Below, piece after piece: positions 13,878 through 23,952 of a stretch of DNA of 64,000 nucleotides (position 1 is the stretch's first letter; each line of letters opens with the position of its first letter). Made by a program: the position numbers and the translations under genes. This DNA comes from an uncultured SAR86 cluster bacterium (GTDB lineage: Bacteria > Pseudomonadota > Gammaproteobacteria > Magnimaribacterales > D2472), in assembly GCA_902593675.1 (NCBI GenBank), contig CACJJI010000003.1, positions 62,001-126,000 on the forward strand, given 5' to 3'. Below the pieces are notes generated by a model that was given only the letters and a program-made list of their open reading frames with translations, made no database searches and had not been told where the DNA came from.

Positions 13878-14498
13878 CTAGAGATCAATGCCTTTTCGAG
13901 CCATAATGCCTTCGTTGTATGCATGCTTTATTTCTTTAATTTCAGATACGGTATCAGCCCATTCAGTTAGAGCCGATCCTCCTCCGCGCCCTGTTACTAC
14001 TACAGATTGCTCAATAGGGCGATTCTGTAGTGAGTTAATTATCCTTCCTTCATCAAGATACTTAAAACTTAACATATAAGTAAGCTCATCTAATACCACC
14101 AAATGATAGCTTTCATCTTGAAGCATAGATTCTGCAATTGCCCAGCTTTTCTCTGCAGCGGCAGTGTCAAAAGTTCTATCTTGAGTTTCCCATGTGAAAC
14201 CAGTATTCATTTGATGAAAGGTTACATCCGGGCATTTATCACGAAGGTAAATTTCTTCTCCAGATAATTGTTGTCCCTTTATAAATTGAACAATCCCAAT
14301 CTTGTAATTGTAGCCCAAAGATCTCATTACCATCCCGAAAGCAGAGGTTGACTTTCCCTTGCCATTACCTGTCAAGAGGACCCCAATACCTCTTTTAATA
14401 TTTGCTGCATCAATTGATGCATCAATATTCTTCTTAAGCTTTTTCATTTTTTTCTTATGAAGATTATCTTTTGTTTGGTTTTGATCTTTTATATTCAT
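13878..14498 (-). CDS. cobO: Corrinoid adenosyltransferase (CobA/CobO/BtuR type)
   Basis: The 206-residue P-loop enzyme transfers the adenosyl group of ATP to reduced corrinoids, forming adenosylcobamide. The P-loop GNGKGKST is at 44-51; then GIVQFIKG, TGFTWETQDR, VLDELTYML, VVVTGRGG and a C-terminal KHAYNEGIMARKGIDL all match BtuR. Compared with E. coli (196 residues) the N-terminus is longer and Lys-rich. An ATG at codon 18 is an alternative start; neither has a clear ribosome-binding site. It sits between the TonB-dependent receptor and the DUF6580 gene. It probably serves salvaged rather than newly made corrinoid, because no other cobalamin synthesis gene is in the window. Confidence 0.93.
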   Translation of the reverse strand: MNIKDQNQTKDNLHKKKMKKLKKNIDASIDAANIKRGIGVLLTGNGKGKSTSAFGMVMRSLGYNYKIGIVQFIKGQQLSGEEIYLRDKCPDVTFHQMNTGFTWETQDRTFDTAAAEKSWAIAESMLQDESYHLVVLDELTYMLSFKYLDEGRIINSLQNRPIEQSVVVTGRGGGSALTEWADTVSEIKEIKHAYNEGIMARKGIDL

Positions 14499-14548
14499 TT
14501 AGCTTATTTCGATATTCACTGTAACAACTAATCTAGGTTTGTTCACTC

Positions 14549-16462
14549 TCATAATCTATATCTGATTCCAAAATGGGCTCCAAAACCAAGCGGTTGATAG
14601 CTATATATTTCTTCATAGCTCTCATCTAATAAATTTTCTAAGCGAAGATAAGCTTCTAATTCTTTGCTGATATTTAAGCTTGCGCTTACATTAAAAAGAA
14701 TGAATTTAGCTAGTTTTACTTTGTTTGGAAAAACAATATCTTCCTGGGCACCATTGTATTGAATATTTGCATTAATATTTAAGGAATCGCTTTGGCGCCA
14801 TGACAAGTTTAAACTTGAAATATGACGAGGTCGTCTTACTTCGTTCTGATATTTTCCATTTGCATCAAGTTCTTTTGAATCAGTGAAAGTATATGAGCTG
14901 CTTAAAGTTACTTTTTCGCTAAGCTGGCCTGATGCGGTAATTTCTATCCCATTTCTTTTGCTAAGTCCCGATTTATTGCCTGCTGTGTATCCAAATGTTA
15001 TTGGATCAAAAACATTTCCATCTATTTCATTTGCTAGTTCAGCACGAAAGATAGTTGCTGATAAATTTAGATTTGCATTAGAAAATTTCTTATCAAAGCC
15101 TAATTCCAAGTTAGTTGACTCCTCTGGCTTCAAAAATGGGTTGCCAATGAAATTAGTATAAAAACCAAATCGCTCTGTAAATGTTGGATTTTTAATTGCT
15201 GTGCCATAGGCGCTTCTTAATCTGGCTTGACTGGTTAAGTCATAGACTGCCTCAAATCTATAGGTATTTGAATTCTTAAATTCAGAATTATCATCCCAAC
15301 GCGTGCTTACCGCTAATGTAATCTTGTCTGAAATATCAGCCCGATATTCAAAGGCACTGCTGTTCGTTTTTTTTCTTTGATCTTGATTGGGATCAAATAC
15401 CCCATAAACTCCGTAGTCATTAATTATACCGCGCTGTCTAAATTTTTCTTTTTCATGCTCTATTAAAACAGAAATCCTTTGAGCTAATTGATCCCAATGC
15501 AATGAGCTTATAAGTCTTATTTGATCTTTGGTAGAAGAAGTTGCAGTACCCAGCAAGCCATCTTTGAAATCCTGATTGTCATTAGTTGATTGTGCGAATG
15601 AAAAGTGATGACGCCATTTTTTGTCTGGATTCAAATAATCCAGTTTGAGACCCACTGTGGTATTTTTGAATTCTGCAACTCTATCTTGATCATCAAGCAA
15701 GCCATCAAAATTTACATCTGAGTCATATTGATTGATTCCATTTGAACGTCTAGCTGAAAAAGATGTTTTAATTTTTTCGTTAATCCTCAAGCCTGATTTA
15801 AATGTTAAATTTTTATTTTCATATCCATCCTTTTCGTTGCCAACTCGAGAAATATTATCGCCATCTGTTTCAAGTTTGCTTAAACCAAGTTGTACATCAA
15901 AGTTATTATTTCTTAAGCCGAAGCTAACTCCATTATTTTTTGTATCAAAACTTCCGTTCTCAGAAAAAATCTTTAAATTTTTTGGCTTGATAGCGTTTTT
16001 AGTAATTATATTAATAACTCCAGACAAAGCATCGCTGCCAAACATTGAGCTTTGCGGACCCCTAATAACTTCTATTCTTTCAATATCTTCCGCAGCAAAG
16101 GTGCCCCAATTTAGCTCATCGTTCTGAGCTGCATTATTAGCCTCAATTCCATCAATTAACACAAGCAAATGATTTGCCTCACTGCCTCTAATTCTAATTT
16201 GAGTCTGAGAACCCTGAACACCGCTTTTACTAACAGCTAATCCTGGGACATTTCGAAGAAGATCACTAATGCTTGATACGGGCCTATTAATGATTTGTTC
16301 ATTGCCAATAATAGTAATGGCATTAGCAGAGCGCTCAGCGCTAATAGGTACCAGTGATGCATAAACTAATACTTCTTCAATGCTATCAACTTGGCTTTCG
16401 GCATTTAGAATTTTTGAAAAAGATAATAAAACAATGTAACAAATGCAAGAAAAGACTCTCAA
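14549..16462 (-). CDS. btuB: TonB-dependent outer membrane receptor, BtuB-like (vitamin B12)
   Basis: The protein has about 637 residues. A signal peptide ends near LNAES; then comes a TonB-box-like EEVLVYAS, a plug domain (SISDLLRNVPGLAV, LVLIDGIEAN, IERIEVIRGPQSSMFG, SGVINIITK) and a 22-strand barrel-type region with many NxTY/RxEN segments. Assignment to cobalamin uptake rests on BtuB-like length and plug plus position between metH (B12-dependent) and cobO. I place the start at the TTG at 16462, because a perfect AAGGAG (16469-16474) lies 6 bases before it. The ATG at 16477 has no ribosome-binding site and would put that AAGGAG inside the gene. It is 67-82 bases after metH. Confidence 0.85.
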   Translation of the reverse strand: MRVFSCICYIVLLSFSKILNAESQVDSIEEVLVYASLVPISAERSANAITIIGNEQIINRPVSSISDLLRNVPGLAVSKSGVQGSQTQIRIRGSEANHLLVLIDGIEANNAAQNDELNWGTFAAEDIERIEVIRGPQSSMFGSDALSGVINIITKNAIKPKNLKIFSENGSFDTKNNGVSFGLRNNNFDVQLGLSKLETDGDNISRVGNEKDGYENKNLTFKSGLRINEKIKTSFSARRSNGINQYDSDVNFDGLLDDQDRVAEFKNTTVGLKLDYLNPDKKWRHHFSFAQSTNDNQDFKDGLLGTATSSTKDQIRLISSLHWDQLAQRISVLIEHEKEKFRQRGIINDYGVYGVFDPNQDQRKKTNSSAFEYRADISDKITLAVSTRWDDNSEFKNSNTYRFEAVYDLTSQARLRSAYGTAIKNPTFTERFGFYTNFIGNPFLKPEESTNLELGFDKKFSNANLNLSATIFRAELANEIDGNVFDPITFGYTAGNKSGLSKRNGIEITASGQLSEKVTLSSSYTFTDSKELDANGKYQNEVRRPRHISSLNLSWRQSDSLNINANIQYNGAQEDIVFPNKVKLAKFILFNVSASLNISKELEAYLRLENLLDESYEEIYSYQPLGFGAHFGIRYRL

Positions 16463-16544
16463 TTTAATCTCCTTCATGCTTAGGCATGTTTAGATAAATC
16501 ATTAAAATGCTGGCTTCGCCAAACTTATTTCCATTTTGGTAGAC

Positions 16545-19500
16545 CTAATAACCAAGAACTGGAGCAAGCCAGATTTCATTTTCATCTATGCTCTCATCTC
16601 TAGAATTTGAATAGTCTTCAACTTGATCTTTATCGATCCTGCCTAATTGGAAATAATGAGATTGAGGATGCGCGAAATATAAACCACTCACACTTGCAGT
16701 AGGCCACATTGCTAAAGATTCAGTAAGAGTTAAATCTATATTTTTTTCAACATCAAGCAGCTCCCAAATATTTAATTTAAGACGATGATCTGGACAAGAT
16801 GGGTAGCCAGGAGCAGGGCGGATACCTTGATATTTTTCTTTAATAAGGTCTTCATTTTTAAGGTTTTCCTCTGCTGAATAACCCCAAAACTCACAACGAA
16901 CTTTTTTATGAGCCCACTCTGCAAAAGCTTCAGCAAAACGATCAGCTAAAGCTTTTAAAATGATTGAGTTATAGTCATCATGCTCAGCCTCAAAACGTTG
17001 AATGTGTTCATCGATGCCATGACCTGCTGTAACAGCAAAAGCCCCTATATAATCATCCTTTTCATCGATGAAGTCTGCCAAAGAGTTTGAGTCTAAGTCT
17101 TCGCGAGATTTCTGTTGACGCAAACAATGCAATAATAATTCTTCATTAGTTCTATCTTCCCTTAATACGGCTATAGCATCACCGATTGATCTTGCGGGGA
17201 ATAAGCCTATGACACCTTTAGGATTTAACCATTTTTCCTTTATAAGCTTCTCAAGCACTAGCTGAGTATCATCCCATAATTTACGAGCCTCTGGCCCTTT
17301 TACAGGATCAGATAGAATGTCAGGAAATCGCCCACTAAATTCCCATGCGTTAAAATATGGCATCCAATCTATAAACTCCTCAAGCTCTTCAAGGCTTGGA
17401 TTAAGCTTAGTTATCCCAAGCTGTAATGGTGCAGTCGGCTTAAAAGACATATCTATAACTGGTTTTCTAGACTGCGCTTCTGGAAACGGTCTAAGTGGTG
17501 ACTGAGCTCTAGAAGCATAAGCTTCTCGCTTATTTGAATGAGCTTTAGCAAGCTCTTTTGCATATTCATCATGATCCCCCACTAATCTTTGTGCCACGCC
17601 AACAGCTCTGGATGCATCTTTTACATAAACTACTGTTCCGCTATATGAAGGATCAATTTTTACTGATGTATGTGCAGGGCTTGTAGTTGCTCCACCAATT
17701 AATAATGGGATTGAGAGGTTTCTTCGCTCCATCTCTTTTGCAACTCCAACCATCTCATCCAGAGAAGGTGTTATCAACCCCGATAATCCGATCAGATCAC
17801 AGTCTTCCTCTTCCGCAACATCTAAAATCTTTTGAGTTGGGACCATCACGCCTAAGTCGATCACTTCAAAATTATTACATTGCAAAACAACGCCGACGAT
17901 GTTTTTACCTATGTCATGAACATCGCCTTTTACTGTAGCAAGAACCATCTTGCCATTGCTTTGCATTTCTTGACCGCCTTTTTCCTCTTCGATAAATGGA
18001 ACTAAATATGCAACTGCTTTCTTCATAACTCGAGCAGATTTTATAACTTGGGGGAGAAACATTTTGCCAGCTCCAAATAAATCTCCAACTTTGTTCATCC
18101 CATCCATTAATGGCCCTTCAATTACTTCAAGCGGTTTTTCTACAGACAATCTAGCCTCTTCAACATCTTCGATCACGAAGGTATCTACACCGGTAACTAA
18201 AGAGTGATTTAATCTCTCATTCACACTGAGATTTCTCCAGTCTTGATTTGAAATGCTCATGGATGCGCTCTCATCACCAGCATATTTAGGAGCTAAATTT
18301 AATAAGCGCTCAGTTGCATCCTCTCTTCGATTTAAAATAACGTCCTCGACTGCCTCTCGAAGCTCCTCTGGCAAGTCATCATAAATAGCTAGTTGTCCAG
18401 CATTAACAATTGCCATTGTTAGGCCATTCTCTATTGAATGGTATAGAAATACAGAGTGCATGGCCTCACGAAGAACATTATTACCCCGAAAGCTAAATGA
18501 CACATTTGAGAGACCACCAGATAAAGATACTCCTGTACAGGTTTTTTTTATTTCGGCACAGGCCTGAATGAAAGATAGACCATATTCATTATGTTCTTCT
18601 ATTCCAGTTGCAACTGCAAAAACATTTGGATCGAAAATAATATCATGAGGATCCATGCCAACCTCTTTAACCAAGATGGTATAAGCACGCTTACAAATAT
18701 CAACTTTCCTGCTAAGGGTGTCTGCTTGACCCTCTTCATCGAATGCCATAACAACAACTGCCGCACCATATTTTTTAACTAGCTTTGCCTGCTCCATAAA
18801 TTGCTTCTCGCCCTCTTTCAAAGAAATTGAATTAACCACCGCTTTACCTTGAATGTGTTTTAGACCTTCTTCTATGATTTCCCATTTGCTTGAATCAATC
18901 ATAATTGGAACTCTTGAAATATCTGGCTCTCCAGCAATAAGATTAAGGAACTTAATCATTGCTGCCTTAGAATCCAACATACCTTCATCCATGTTGATAT
19001 CGATCATTTGAGCTCCATTTTCAACCTGTTGCCTAGCAACCTGAATGGCAGCTTCGTAATCATTAGACTCTATAAGTTTTCTAAAAATAGCCGAACCAGT
19101 AACATTTGTTCGCTCTCCAATATTAATAAAAAGGTTATCTTCCTTAATTTCTAGAGGCTCTAATCCGCTTAAAAGCATTGATTTTGGAGATGCTGGAATT
19201 GCTCTTGGAGTGAAGTCATTAACCAGAGCCTTGATAACTTCAATGTGTTCAGCGGTTGTTCCGCAACAACCACCTACAATATTATATAAACCCTCTTCAC
19301 CAAATTCTTTTAAAATTGTAGCCATCTCTGAAGGAGTTTGATCATACTCGCCAAATTGATTTGGCAATCCTGCATTTGGATGAACGCTGACATAACAATC
19401 GGCAATTTGAGAAAGCTTTTGTAGAAATGGTCTCAACTCGGATGCTCCTAAGGCACAATTCAATCCTATAGATATTGGTTTAGCATGTCTCACAGAATGC

Positions 19501-20207
19501 CAAAATGCAGTGGTTGTTTGCCCAGATAGTGTTCTGCCCGATGCATCTGTAATGGTTCCCGAAATCATAATTGGGATGTCTATTTGGCGTTCTTCAGATA
19601 CTAAATCTATCGCAAACAAAGCAGCTTTTGCATTGAGAGTATCAAAAATTGTTTCGACCATAATAAGATCTGCTCCGCCATCCAATAAAGCCGATGTAGC
19701 CACTTTGAATGTTTCAACTAATTGGTCAAAATTAATATTTCTAAATGAGGGGTCTTCTACGTCTGGGCTTAATGAACATGTTCGATTAGTTGGCCCCAAA
19801 ACCCCAGCAACAAAAACTTCCCTAGAATTTTTTTCTTTGAATGTCTCTACACTTTTTCGAGCAATTTCTGCAGCAGAAAAATTAAGCTCATGGACAAGAT
19901 CTTCCATATCATAGTCAGCCATTGAAGGACCATTAGAGTTGAATGTATTTGTCTCAATAATGTTTGCTCCGGCTTCCAAAAATTCTTTATGAATTTCTTC
20001 TATGATCCTTGGTTGAGTGATGCTTAAAAGGTCATTATTTCCCTTAAGATCTATAGACCAATCAGCAAATCTCTGACCTCTATAGTCATTTTCTTGCAAA
20101 TCATGAGCCTGAATCATAGTGCCCATGGCGCCGTCTAAAATAACTATCTGAGAGTCCAATAAATTAGTTAGCTTTTGTCTTGATAAAGAGTTGAGTTTAT
20201 TAACCAT
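16545..20207 (-). CDS. metH: Cobalamin-dependent methionine synthase
   Basis: The 1220-residue protein has full length and all four modules. The homocysteine domain shows DGAMGTM and the zinc ligands in GGCCGTT. The pterin domain shows [12 protein letters not shown]. The cap and B12 domain show DVHDIGKN with the axial His near 764 and [10 protein letters not shown]. The C-terminal SAM-activation domain shows [12 protein letters not shown]. The enzyme makes methionine from homocysteine using methyl-THF supplied by MetF. A SAM-II-type riboswitch with its own promoter lies upstream (20292-20377). The ATG at 20207 has no close ribosome-binding site, and an AGG sits in a hairpin just before it. 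B12 uptake genes follow downstream. Confidence 0.97.
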
Positions 20208-20210
20208 TAA

Positions 20211-20229
20211 TATTTAGCCAACCTAAATA
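20211..20229 (-). promoter_or_regulatory. Stem-loop directly before the metH start codon
   Basis: On the minus strand, TATTTAG (20229-20223), a five-base loop GTTGG and CTAAATA (20217-20211) form a perfect 7-bp stem ending three bases before the metH ATG. It contains the only AGG near the start, so it could hide the ribosome entry site. It may be part of the output stage of the upstream SAM-II aptamer. This is inference; AT-rich stems also arise by chance. Confidence 0.4.
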
Positions 20230-20291
20230 AGCACTTCGAACATTAAATAAGCTAATGCTTGTAGTGGTTTAGTTAAATCCTGGGAATAATT

Positions 20292-20340
20292 TCCGTTTTA
20301 GCACTTTCTTTACAATCGCGGCAATAGGATCAAATCACGA
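20292..20340 (-). promoter_or_regulatory. SAM-II-type riboswitch aptamer upstream of metH
   Basis: On the minus strand the segment carries the ordered SAM-II core: GTGATTTG, then CC-(N)-TTGC, then GTAAAG, then GCTAAAA, then GG. P1 would be TCGTG (20340-20336) with CGCGA (20320-20316). The pseudoknot pairs TCC (20329-20327) with GGA (20294-20292), as in the H-type SAM-II fold. It resembles the SAM-II aptamer known from Sargasso Sea metX. The predicted transcription start (about 20342) is just ahead of P1, and metH begins 85 bases downstream. Similarity was judged by eye against the remembered consensus. Confidence 0.72.
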
Positions 20341-20349
20341 TTAGCATTC

Positions 20350-20377
20350 ATAATAAAGATATTTAAATTTTTGTAAA
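20350..20377 (-). promoter_or_regulatory. Predicted sigma70 promoter of metH
   Basis: On the minus strand, TTTACA (20377-20372) and TATTAT (20355-20350) are separated by 16 bases. Each matches 5 of 6 consensus positions. Seven bases downstream is about 20342, two bases before the first P1 base of the SAM-II aptamer, so the whole aptamer would be in the leader. Confidence 0.6.
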
Positions 20378-20394
20378 CCCAGCAACTCAAAAAT

Positions 20395-20423
20395 TTGAAT
20401 TTTTTTTCTAAACCAATTATGAT
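20395..20423 (+). promoter_or_regulatory. Predicted sigma70 promoter of metF
   Basis: TTGAAT (20395-20400) and TATGAT (20418-20423) have a 17-base spacer, matching 4 and 5 of 6 consensus positions. The predicted start is near 20430, immediately before the SAM-II aptamer of metF. It is back-to-back with the metH promoter, with 17 bases between the two -35 boxes. Confidence 0.6.
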
Positions 20424-20433
20424 TCGCCCACTT

Positions 20434-20478
20434 AAAGTGATTTGTTCCTGCTTGCATACTTAAACTGCTAAATGGGAC
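20434..20478 (+). promoter_or_regulatory. SAM-II-type riboswitch aptamer upstream of metF
   Basis: The segment shows the SAM-II signature in order: GTGATTTG (20437-20444), TTCC, GCTTGC, TTAAAC, GCTAAA (20467-20472), then GGGAC. P1 is AAGTG (20435-20439) with TACTT (20457-20461). The pseudoknot pairs GTTCC (20444-20448) with GGGAC (20474-20478), 5 bp including one G-T. The aptamer ends just before a hairpin holding the metF ribosome-binding site, fitting SAM-II control of translation initiation. High SAM would be expected to reduce MetF. The match is to a remembered consensus, not a computed one. Confidence 0.8.
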
Positions 20479-20492
20479 ACCTTAACTAGGTG
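20478..20492 (+). promoter_or_regulatory. Ribosome-binding-site hairpin of metF (riboswitch output)
   Basis: CACCT (20478-20482) pairs with AGGTG (20488-20492) around a TAACT loop. AGG is the metF ribosome-binding site, 6 bases before the ATG at 20497, so the hairpin would block ribosome entry. Its first base, C20478, is also the last base of the aptamer pseudoknot. The two elements therefore touch and could stack on or compete with each other. Confidence 0.6.
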
Positions 20493-20496
20493 AAAA

Positions 20497-21327
20497 ATGA
20501 AAATTTCGTATGAATTTTATCCTCCACAGGATTTGGACTATAAAAAAGTTGTTAATGAATTTTCTAGGCTGAATCGCTATAGGCCAGATTTTATTTCTAT
20601 TACTTATGGCGCTATGGGAGGCTCTCAGCATAAAAGCATTGGCCTCATAAAAGCTTTCATGGAAAAAAGCGATATTGATATAGCTGCTCACTTAACTCTT
20701 GTTGGCAAAAGTAAAACTGAAATAAAAAAAATTATTAATCAGTTTATTGCTCTCGGTATTAACAAAATAGTCGCACTGAGAGGTGACAGCCCCAATGGTA
20801 AATTCAAGGCACATCAAAATGGTTTCGATAGCACTGCAGATTTTGTTAAGTTTTTAATTGATTCAAATTTGGAAGTTTTCGTATCTGCGTATCCTGAACC
20901 TCACCCTGAGTCTGAGAGTTTTGATTTTGATCTTCAATTACTAAAAAGTAAAACTCTTGCTGGGTCTAAACAATGCATTTCTCAATTTTGTTTTTCTATG
21001 GATAACTACCAAAAATTAATTGATCAGTTGGTAAAAAAGAATATTAAAAATGAGTTAACAGCTGGTATTATGCCTATTTATAACATTGATAGTCTTTGTA
21101 ATATGGCAAAAAAATGTGGTATCAACATTCCTGCTGGGATTATTAATCAGTTTTCTGATGATAAAGAGCGCAATGAGCAAGCTGCTGTTAGTATTTGCAT
21201 TAATCAAATAAAAGACCTTCAAAATATGGGTGTAGATAATTTTCACTTTTATACCCTTAATAAATCATCGCTTTTGCTAAAAATTTTTGATGAATTATCA
21301 TTTACTAACTATGGAGAAAAATTATGA
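20497..21327 (+). CDS. metF: 5,10-methylenetetrahydrofolate reductase
   Basis: The 276-residue FAD enzyme reduces methylene-THF to methyl-THF, the methyl donor for MetH. Family blocks are the N-terminal SYEFYPPQ (usual SFEFFPP), [29 protein letters not shown], a flavin-contacting [10 protein letters not shown] and TAGIMPIYN. The expected catalytic Glu is in the N-terminal EFYPP. It is slightly shorter than E. coli MetF (296). The ATG follows AGGTG by 4 bases. The stop overlaps the metK start by 4 bases, so metF and metK share the SAM-II-controlled transcript. Confidence 0.95.
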
Positions 21328-22478
21328 GTTATATATTTACATCTGAATCGGTATCTGGCGGCCATCCTGACAAAGTTTGCGATCAAGTTTCTGATGCCAT
21401 TTTGGATGCCTACTTAGCTGAAGACCCAAACAGCAGAGTTGCATGCGAAACAATGATCAAAAATAATATGGTGTATATTGCTGGAGAGATTACGTCCTTA
21501 GGAAGCCCCGACCTCGAACCAATTGTAAGAAAAACAATTAATGATATTGGCTACAACAACGATGAATACGGGTTTAATGGTGATACTTGTGAATTTACTA
21601 ATCTTGTCTTTGAACAGTCTCCTGATATATCTCAAGGAGTCACCGAAGGTGAGGGTGAAAATTTAGAGCAAGGAGCTGGAGACCAAGGGTTAATGTTTGG
21701 GTATGCATGCAAAGAGACAGAATCATTGATGCCCCTTCCTATAGACCTTTCTCACAGATTGGTAAAAAAACAAGCTGATGTGATGAAAAGCGGAGAAATT
21801 AAATGGCTAAGACCTGATGCAAAGAGCCAGGTAAGCGTTATTTACTCTGATGATGGCAAAACAATTGAAGGTCTTTCCGCTGTTGTACTTTCAACCCAGC
21901 ACGATGAAGATGTTACTCAAGAAGAAATCAAAGCCGAGGTTATGGATAAAATTATTAAGCCTGTTGTTCCTGAGGAGTGGATTCTCGATTCTACAAATAT
22001 TTATATAAATCCAACGGGTAAATTTGTTATTGGAGGCCCAGTTGGTGATTGCGGTCTTACAGGAAGAAAAATAATTGTAGATACTTATGGAGGCATGGCC
22101 CGTCATGGTGGTGGTGCTTTTTCTGGAAAAGACCCATCAAAAGTAGATAGATCTGCAGCATACGCTTCAAGGTATGTAGCTAAAAATATTGTGGCTGCAG
22201 GACTTGCAGATTATTGCGAAATTCAAGTTTCATATGCTATTGGTGTGGCAAAACCTACATCTATACATGTTGAAACTTTTAATAGTGAAAAAATATCTAA
22301 AGAAGCTATAGTAAAAATAGTTGAAGAAGAGTTTGATCTAAGGCCAAAAAGTTTAATAAATATGCTTGATCTTAAAAGGCCAATTTATCTTCCAACCGCA
22401 GCATACGGACACTTTGGAAGATCTGATATTGATTTAACATGGGAAAGAACTGATAAAGCAGATCAGATTTCACAGTAA
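21324..22478 (+). CDS. metK: S-adenosylmethionine synthetase
   Basis: The 384-residue protein makes SAM from methionine and ATP. N-terminal [11 protein letters not shown] holds the metal and ATP site, [12 protein letters not shown] is signature 1, and [19 protein letters not shown] is signature 2 with the catalytic loop lysine; all are intact. It overlaps metF by 4 bases. A strong intrinsic terminator follows 17 bases after the stop, then ahcY. Confidence 0.98.
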
Positions 22479-22522: not shown

Positions 22523-22557
22523 ATGTAGAATGCACCTTCTAATAATTGGAGTATAGA

Positions 22558-23952
22558 ATGGAAAATGACTTTAAAGTAGCAGATATGAGCCTTGCAGATT
22601 TTGGCAGAAGAGAAATATCCTTGGCAGAAAATGAAATGCCTGCACTGATGGCTTTAAGAACTAAGTACAAAGATGCTCAACCTCTCAAGGGTGCAAAAAT
22701 TATGGGTTGCATTCACATGACAATCCAAACAGCTGTTTTGATTGAAACGCTGGTAGATCTAGGAGCAGAAGTTCGCTGGTCTGGATGCAATATTTTCTCT
22801 ACACAAGATCATGCTGCTGCTGCAATAGCTGCTGCTGGAATACCAGTTTTTGCTTGGAAAGGCCAAACAGAAGAGGAATTTGATTGGTGTATTGAGCAAA
22901 CAATTATAAAAGATGACAAGCCGTGGGATGCGAATATGATTTTAGATGATGGTGGAGATCTCACCCATATGGTTCACACAAAATTTCCTGACATGCTTGA
23001 AACCATACATGGTATTTCAGAAGAGACTACTACTGGCGTTCATAGACTTAAAGCAATGCTTGAGAGTAATAGCCTAAAAGTACCTGCAATTAATGTAAAT
23101 GATTCAGTAACTAAATCGAAAAATGACAATAAATATGGTTGCAGACACAGTTTAAACGATGCAATAAAAAGAGGCACCGATATGTTTCTCTCTTCGAAGA
23201 AGGCATTGGTTGTTGGATATGGAGATGTTGGCAAGGGATCTGCTCTTAGCCTTGCACAAGAAGGCATGATTGTAAGAGTTGTTGAATCTGATCCTATATG
23301 TGCCATGCAGGCTTGCATGGATGGGTTTGAAGTTGTTTCAACTTACAAAAATGGCGTTGTAACCAGAGATGTAAAAGATATTAACCATAGTCTACTTGAA
23401 GATACCGACCTCATTGTAACGACTACCGGAAATGTAAATGTTTGTGATGAAGCAATGTTAAGAACTGTTAAAAACACTGCTGTAATCTGTAACATTGGCC
23501 ACTTTGATAATGAAATTGATACTCAGTTCATGAGAGATAAGTGGTATTGGGAGGAAATCAAGCCTCAAGTTCATAGAGTATTTAGAGATACTTCTCCAGC
23601 TGAGACTCCAGACCTTCAAAGCAAGGACTATATTATTCTTTTGGCTGAAGGCAGACTTGTTAACCTAGGAAATGCGACTGGTCACCCTAGTAGAATCATG
23701 GATGGATCATTTGCTAACCAAGTTTTAGCTCAAATGTATTTATATGAACAGGGTTTTGCAAATGTTAATGATGCTGACAAACAAAAAGAAATGTTAACAG
23801 TTAAGGTTTTGCCTAAAAAACTAGATGAAGAAGTTGCTGAGCTCATGGTTCAAGGCTTTGGCGGAACAATCACTAAATTAACTGGCGAACAGGCTGAGTA
23901 TATCAATGTTCCTGTCGATGGGCCGTTTAAAGAAGAAGAATACAAATACTAA
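22558..23952 (+). CDS. ahcY: S-adenosylhomocysteine hydrolase
   Basis: The 464-residue protein splits S-adenosylhomocysteine to homocysteine and adenosine, closing the methyl cycle with MetH, MetF and MetK. Blocks seen: [28 protein letters not shown], the NAD loop GYGDVGKG, and the C-terminal PDGPFK-like [14 protein letters not shown] that reaches into the neighbouring subunit. The ATG at 22558 has GGAG 6 bases ahead; the in-frame TTG at 22546 overlaps that site and is not chosen. The AhcY route (rather than Pfs/LuxS) fits the riboswitch-controlled cluster. Confidence 0.97.

Follow-up and report, generated by a model that had tools for sequence, protein, structure and literature searches.

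Two SAM-II-type elements between metH and metF of a SAR86 bacterium, one of them a compact form before metF, metK and ahcY

What controls two divergent methionine genes, metH and metF, that share a single intergenic stretch of 289 bases? The stretch runs between the metH start codon (ATG at 20207, minus strand) and that of metF (ATG at 20497, plus strand) in the window, by which we mean the whole 64,000 nucleotides analysed. The source genome (1.51 Mb in 20 contigs) belongs to the SAR86 bacteria, which are abundant in the surface ocean and have small genomes. The genes on both sides of the stretch are listed with its features in table 1. The metF product reaches 235.6 bits with the NCBIfam model fadh2, under the cut-off of 293.7. 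metH itself is part of a cluster of B12-use genes (13878–20207, minus strand) between tkt and metF; its neighbours are a cob(I)yrinic acid adenosyltransferase gene and a TonB gene that is nearest to B12 receptors (272 bits, under the cut-off of 599.7).

We think it likely that these genes are controlled by a pair of independent SAM-II-kind riboswitches that sense SAM and stand each behind a promoter of its own: one, of a SAM-II subtype of the SAR86 order that we call type B, for metH, and one of a compact form, type C, for metF–metK–ahcY, with SAM lowering expression from both.

Table 1. Genes, aptamers, promoters and downstream elements of the metH–metF locus (window coordinates; paired segments are joined by 'with').
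Feature	Position	Strand	Basis or detail
metH, B12-dependent methionine synthase	16545..20207	-	NCBIfam PRK09490, 1991 bits (above cut-off 1497)
metF, methylenetetrahydrofolate reductase, divergent from metH	20497..21327	+	Pfam PF02219, E 2.3e-65
metK, SAM synthetase	21324..22478	+	NCBIfam TIGR01034, 568.6 bits
ahcY, adenosylhomocysteinase	22546..23952	+	NCBIfam TIGR00936, 500.4 bits
Type B SAM-II-type aptamer, metH leader	20292..20342	-	RF00521, 28.3 bits; alignment of 36 copies
Type B P1	20342-20337 with 20319-20314	-	
Type B GATTTG box	20336-20331	-	
Type B P2 pseudoknot	20329-20327 with 20294-20292; 20324-20321 with 20302, 20301, 20299, 20298	-	
Type B conserved 3′ box, UUCC and AGGAU; putative strand-swap expression platform	20277..20286	-	Alignment of 36 copies
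Sigma70-like promoter of metH, TTTACA-16-TATTAT	20350..20377	-	10/12 matches; predicted start ~20343, just before P1
Sigma70-like promoter of metF operon, TTGAAT-17-TATGAT	20395..20423	+	Predicted start ~20430, just before P1
Compact SAM-II-like aptamer (type C), metF–metK–ahcY leader, 43 nt	20435..20477	+	RF00521, 16.8 bits; model R1; covariation
Type C P1	20435-20439 with 20457-20461	+	
Type C P2	20446-20448 with 20475-20477; 20452-20455 with 20467, 20468, 20470, 20471	+	
Hairpin CACCU-UAACU-AGGUG, directly after P2	20478..20492	+	Post-P2 stem scan, 30 compact loci

Detection of the pair

How far can the two elements be identified within the window itself? The core pattern GATTTG-N4..8-TTGC-N9..20-GCTAA occurs twice in the 64 kb, both times in the metH/metF interval (within 20208–20496) and on opposite strands. 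In 100 dinucleotide shuffles the mean was 0.04 matches, and a single shuffle attained two. Both elements keep the order GATTTG-CC-TTGC-TAAA-GCTAAA-GG of SAM-II (RF00521) and have in common with it a P1 stem, an H-type P2 pseudoknot and methionine-pathway targets. An earlier, sequence-only reading of the locus had proposed divergent SAM-II-type folds aimed at met genes. This proposal stands: the forms recur in relatives, and the targets (metH on the minus strand, metF and then metK on the plus strand) were confirmed at the relatives' loci.

The same reading had named the Rfam covariance model as a check. RF00521 (SAM_alpha) gives 28.3 bits (E 3.2e-4) for the metH element and 16.8 bits (E 0.44) for the metF element, both below the gathering cut-off of 36, which we treat as a search threshold and not as a biological feature. 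Taken by itself, the Rfam score has modest significance for the metH copy and none for the metF copy; the latter is accepted because it is conserved in relatives, and not by its score. The SAM-II long loop model RF01726 gives 22.1 and 15.1 bits against a cut-off of 44, and within the whole 64-kb window no Rfam family reaches its own gathering score. For the metH copy, which lies under the RF00521 cut-off, we have lowered the claim from SAM-II to 'SAM-II type'.

Does each element have a promoter of its own? Sigma70-like promoters with starts a few bases before each P1 had been predicted, and the hexamers are indeed in place (table 1). Two promoter-like sites in the metH/metF stretch are not above the 1.6 expected by chance; the placement before the compact form, nevertheless, is kept in all 30 of its loci, where a site of at least 7/12 matches ends 13–21 nt before GATTTG in every case and the spacer is 17 nt in 29. 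A site of at least 8/12 is present in 24 of the 30, as against 36% of mononucleotide shuffles. Each transcript would start at its own promoter, a few bases before P1. At high SAM, the ligand would lodge in the pseudoknot and lock P2, and expression would fall; we infer both the binding of SAM and this direction of control for the two elements alike.

The aptamers and what follows them

What sets the metF element apart from SAM-II as it is usually met? Three SAM-II forms, types A, B and C, are visible in relatives. The spacing from UUGC to GCUAA is 11 nt in type C, as against 18 nt in the metH copy, in the usual type A copy and in the Rfam consensus. Given this spacing and the low Rfam score, type C is filed as a variant of SAM-II and not as a plain member. 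It differs from SAM-II also in its target, metF–metK–ahcY, and in its P1, which is short (4–5 bp) and includes an invariant G-U.

Are its helices conserved as helices? In an alignment of 12 distinct type C sequences 97.9% of the cells are paired, and in one of 30 rows (26 distinct sequences) 95.5%; with the partners slid out of register the figure is at most 56.3% in both. Among the 12 distinct sequences P1 changes on both sides from U-A to C-G and from A-U to U-A, and the pseudoknot from U-A to C-G, while one pair of P1 and one of P2 each vary among UA, UG and CG. The covariation score is attained by none of 500 shuffles for the 12 sequences and by five of 500 for the 26. The count of pairs changed on both sides is attained by 171 and 319 of 500, respectively, and the outermost P1 pair is broken in 12 of the 26. 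The boxes GATTTG, TTGC and GCUAAA are invariant in all 30 compact copies except at the final position of GCUAAA, where four of them (L141, L154, L156 and L158) have G.

The metH element was compared with its own kind, in an alignment of 36 type B copies that includes the window's. Here 96.8% of the cells are paired; three pairs, all of them in P1, change on both sides, a count equalled in 3 of 500 shuffles, and the covariation score is attained in none of 500. The pairs of the type B pseudoknot are kept but nearly invariant, with one-sided changes only, which neither proves nor disproves P2. Both aptamers are thus conserved and covary, though the covariation of stem and pseudoknot looked for in relatives is divided: it is found in P1 of both forms and in the pseudoknot of the compact form, not in that of type B. 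Some rows of the type B alignment show single-base departures from GATTTG.

By what means could the compact aptamer reach the ribosome? The 3′ arm of the hairpin that directly follows P2, AGGUG (20488–20492), is the likely Shine–Dalgarno sequence of metF, 4 nt upstream of the start codon. This hairpin is conserved. A scan finds a stem of at least four pairs after P2 in 28 of the 30 compact loci (a poor one in L158) and none in L140 and L156. The arms are CRCC/GGUG in 24 loci, CGUC/GGCG in one and CCCC/GGUG in one, with none by pattern in four. The 5′ arm abuts P2 in 21 loci, overlaps its last base in four and is separated from it by 1 nt in two; in the remaining loci its position is poor (one) or not found (two). 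Because P2 abuts the hairpin without a linker, a SAM-locked P2 would stack on the Shine–Dalgarno hairpin, and the ribosome would be kept out. In plain thermodynamic folding the metF hairpin forms whether or not the aptamer is blocked, and the clearest difference is in its last G (0.44 versus 0.01 unpaired), so that folding lends weak support to control of the hairpin by SAM.

How might the hairpin serve where metK, and not metF, is the first gene? In 14 of the 16 such loci the start codon lies 53–84 nt past the GG of the aptamer, and the hairpin is therefore not at the metK Shine–Dalgarno sequence in those 14. A stretch UUUUCCUC in L143 and L147 is complementary to GAGGAAAA upstream of metK, and the far arm of the hairpin might act there through a relay before metK. 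Three other metK-first leaders (L150, L151 and L157) carry a stretch, GGTGAAAAATTAAAA, that resembles the window's metF start (GGTGAAAAATGAAAA). The old metF start region looks degraded in them, ATG having become ATT, and the hairpin is retained; the likeness suggests that metF has been lost from these three loci.

We would put at about even the chance that the compact form is a SAM-II subtype in its own right, its aptamer some 43 nt long, through which one SAR86 lineage controls the making of SAM, the clearing of SAH and the supply of methyl-folate by a single feedback switch. Its SAM-locked pseudoknot would stack on the adjoining hairpin, whose far arm would be the on-signal, either as the Shine–Dalgarno sequence of metF itself or, in front of metK, within a longer relay. 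Most SAM-II riboswitches are described as transcriptional in the relevant part of PMC6061858. The metX SAM-II of a Sargasso Sea metagenome is likewise of a small, translational type, as outlined in PMC9373788 and PMC6061858. In the metX element, however, the Shine–Dalgarno sequence is sequestered in the pseudoknot, whereas the likely one of metF lies in the 3′ arm of a hairpin distinct from P2 and abutting it. If our reading is correct, the compact form is a naturally shortened SAM-II aptamer of use to structural biology, and it ties the SAM-II kind of riboswitch to SAM synthetase.

What follows the aptamer in the metH leader is of another kind. Type B differs from SAM-II in a conserved UUCC-AGGAU box after P2, and no terminator was found in either leader of the window (20200–20520). 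The UUCC of this box could pair with GGAA, a strand of P2, and its AGGAU with AUCCU of the aptamer loop; across the 36 copies 92.4% of the GGA/UUCC cells and 96.0% of the AUCC/AGGAU cells can pair. One cell is changed on both sides, no excess over shuffles, and thermodynamic folding of the metH leader gave nothing decisive. We suggest, more tentatively than for metF, that the P2 strands AUCC and GGA may swap to the downstream AGGAU and UUCC, that SAM would pick the fold and that control is probably exerted at the level of translation.

In type A, most copies of which stand upstream of metY- or metB-like genes, the aptamer is followed by a stem that resembles a terminator and has a long T run. 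The strand GCUAAAnAGG is complementary, by eye, to CCUGUUUAGC within that stem, and in L011, L020, L037 and others to CCUG(U/C)UUAGC of the stem, which is what an antiterminator/terminator design would lead one to expect.

Targets and rival readings

Which genes do these elements precede? Type C stands before metF in 14 of the 30 loci and directly before metK in 16. metK follows metF in 12 of the 14 metF-first loci within the stretch covered (the exceptions are L133 and L145), and ahcY follows metK in all 16 of the others. Since metF or metK comes next in all 30 loci, the conserved target of type C is the SAM-cycle operon. For type B, the targets of 35 motifs were counted after classification of 111 loci by motif (7 of the 111 had no classified motif): metH in 4, homocysteine methyltransferases of two kinds in 14 and 4, a fatty-acid-desaturase-family gene in 8, single other genes in 2 and unidentified genes in 3.

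Is the back-to-back arrangement a unit in its own right, one that balances the methyl donor and methyl acceptor enzymes? The sequence-only reading had taken the pairing of MetF with MetH as the regulatory unit. The pair is real, but rare. metH with its own type B element lies upstream of type C in 2 of the 30 compact loci, those of the window and of genome G061 (L140, L086), and the contig JADHNV010000021.1 (L197) has the same divergent layout as G061. The divergent gene is, however, tkt in 27 of the 30 and neither of the two in one, and type B precedes metH elsewhere, in L070, L091 and L097; L070 shares a contig with the compact element of that genome, at a distance of some 75 kb. A conserved balancing unit is therefore improbable, and as a general rule the pair is disfavoured; in these two genomes only, it may act as one. 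The layout looks like an accident of gene order that brought metH, together with its switch, next to the metF operon. The portion of PMC9481103 that reviews tandem SAM-II arrays makes no mention of divergent, opposite-strand or bidirectional ones.

Two separate switches remain our preferred reading, but might the compact one have drifted in its ligand, so as to sense SAH, or SAM and SAH alike? A small pseudoknot element before metK recalls the SAM/SAH riboswitch (RF01727) of Rhodobacterales, as treated in sections of PMC4239095 and PMC7367207, and ahcY lies downstream both in the window and in every metK-first locus. The compact element, in contrast to SAM/SAH, keeps the SAM-II core boxes, and RF01727 has no match in 19900–20800 up to E 10. 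The bases that we match to the U:A.U triple of SAM-V and SAM-II, and to the surroundings of the sulfonium, using the contact bases given for SAM-V in PMC6061858, are invariant in all 30 compact copies, which predicts that SAH is rejected. We regard such a drift as quite improbable.

Very unlikely, too, is the reading that these are protein-binding sites at the DNA level, for example operators of the MetJ, MetR or SahR type, and not RNA switches. Primary sequence near the promoters is strongly conserved, as operators would be, and MetJ and MetR control methionine genes in many other Gammaproteobacteria (PMC4239095, in part). Yet the element is asymmetric and lies downstream of the predicted promoter, P1 and P2 show compensatory changes, and where relatives carry a terminator, its base is complementary, by eye, to the GCUAAA-GG strand.

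That the elements are SAM-V (RF01826), a small marine pseudoknot that shares its binding core with SAM-II (PMC6061858, in part) and in metagenomes precedes bhmt, metH and mmum, much like the targets of type B (PMC2704228, in part), is hardly credible and is disfavoured, for RF01826 has no match in 19900–20800 at E up to 10, its best match in the source genome (E 5.4) is on another contig, and GATTTG and GCTAAA are the consensus boxes of SAM_alpha.

Distribution among relatives

How widely are such elements spread? Of 203 genomes searched from the order, 116 have RF00521 matches at E<=0.01 and 14 have one over the cut-off, while none of 14 control genomes has any at E<=0.01. At E<=10 the model matches in all 14 controls, and matches that weak therefore mean nothing. 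If the present reading is true, an order-wide SAM-II regulon controls the methionine and SAM genes of SAR86; as much of it lies below the Rfam cut-off, annotation is liable to miss it.

The two forms were followed with models of their own, R1 (type C, from 10 copies) and R2 (type B, from 36), whose E-values are rough owing to a short calibration. R1 finds type C in 30 of the 203 genomes at E<1e-12, its training rows (the window copy and nine others) being among these by construction, and one further copy that is cut by a contig end. Type C occurs in 21 of the 26 genomes of the window's genus and, within its family, in two more genera (6 of 7 genomes and 2 of 2); the remaining copy is on a contig of G013, from another family. 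R2 finds type B at E<=1e-6 in 63 of the 203, spread over three families of the order. When 369 genomes sampled from the class were searched, R1 had two genomes besides the window's at E<=1e-3, both weak, and R2 one at E<=1e-4; searches of more than 40 genomes used stricter filters, by which weak matches are lost.

Is a gammaproteobacterial host unusual, as the sequence-only reading had supposed? It is not. RF00521 matches at E<=1e-3 in 118 of the 369 genomes of the class sample (the window's included), over cut-off in 30. Twenty class-sample loci were inspected: in 12 the gene that follows is metY- or metB-like, and in eight of those at least six T in a row come soon after; the rest comprise two before an unidentified gene, one spurious match and five that were unclassified. 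The occurrence of SAM-II in this class is not new: Barrick & Breaker (2007; PMC2258182) name alpha- and gamma-Proteobacteria, the latter sporadically, and Bacteroidetes, and Meyer (2009; PMC2704228) Alpha-, Beta- and Gammaproteobacteria, in the passages concerned. The corresponding passage of Leyn (2014; PMC4239095) restricts SAM-II to two of 22 groups, Rhizobiales and Rhodobacterales, its core target being metY. The unusual features here are the compact variant and the operon that it targets, not the host or the pairing; in the portions of the open-licence literature on SAM-II, SAR86, metK and divergent riboswitches that were covered, we recognised no description of the compact form or of the divergent pair.

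The exact compact pattern is present in 29 records among named genomes, 23 of them titled SAR86, in line with the SAR86-type host that the sequence-only reading had presumed. It has no match in viral contigs, and a viral home for the motif was dropped on that ground. On short contigs binned to another family of the order, the compact motif stands with metF (L145, which is G013:C18, and L207), a case of either transfer or misbinning. One contig titled Alphaproteobacteria (L189, JAAXKA010000218.1) also bears the compact motif; its tkt, metK and ahcY are 80, 74 and 81% identical to those of the window, and it is perhaps a misplaced contig.

Some minor observations concern type B and its kin. The source genome has a third SAM-II copy, of type B, outside the window (G000:C3:158931-159020, L003), which scores 69 bits by R2 and only 15.5 bits by RF00521. 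Tandem type B aptamers stand before fatty-acid-desaturase-like genes in L103 (1311–1398 and 1423–1510, 112 nt apart) and in L104 (1238–1325 and 1346–1433, 108 nt apart), and genome G053 has two type B copies with the same spacing as these tandems. SAM-II-type motifs also precede genes without a plain role in methionine metabolism, namely an OmpW gene by Pfam (L108), a peroxiredoxin gene (L128) and a carbonic anhydrase gene (L079); by eye only, L122 and L124 resemble L108, and L074 is TonB-receptor-like.
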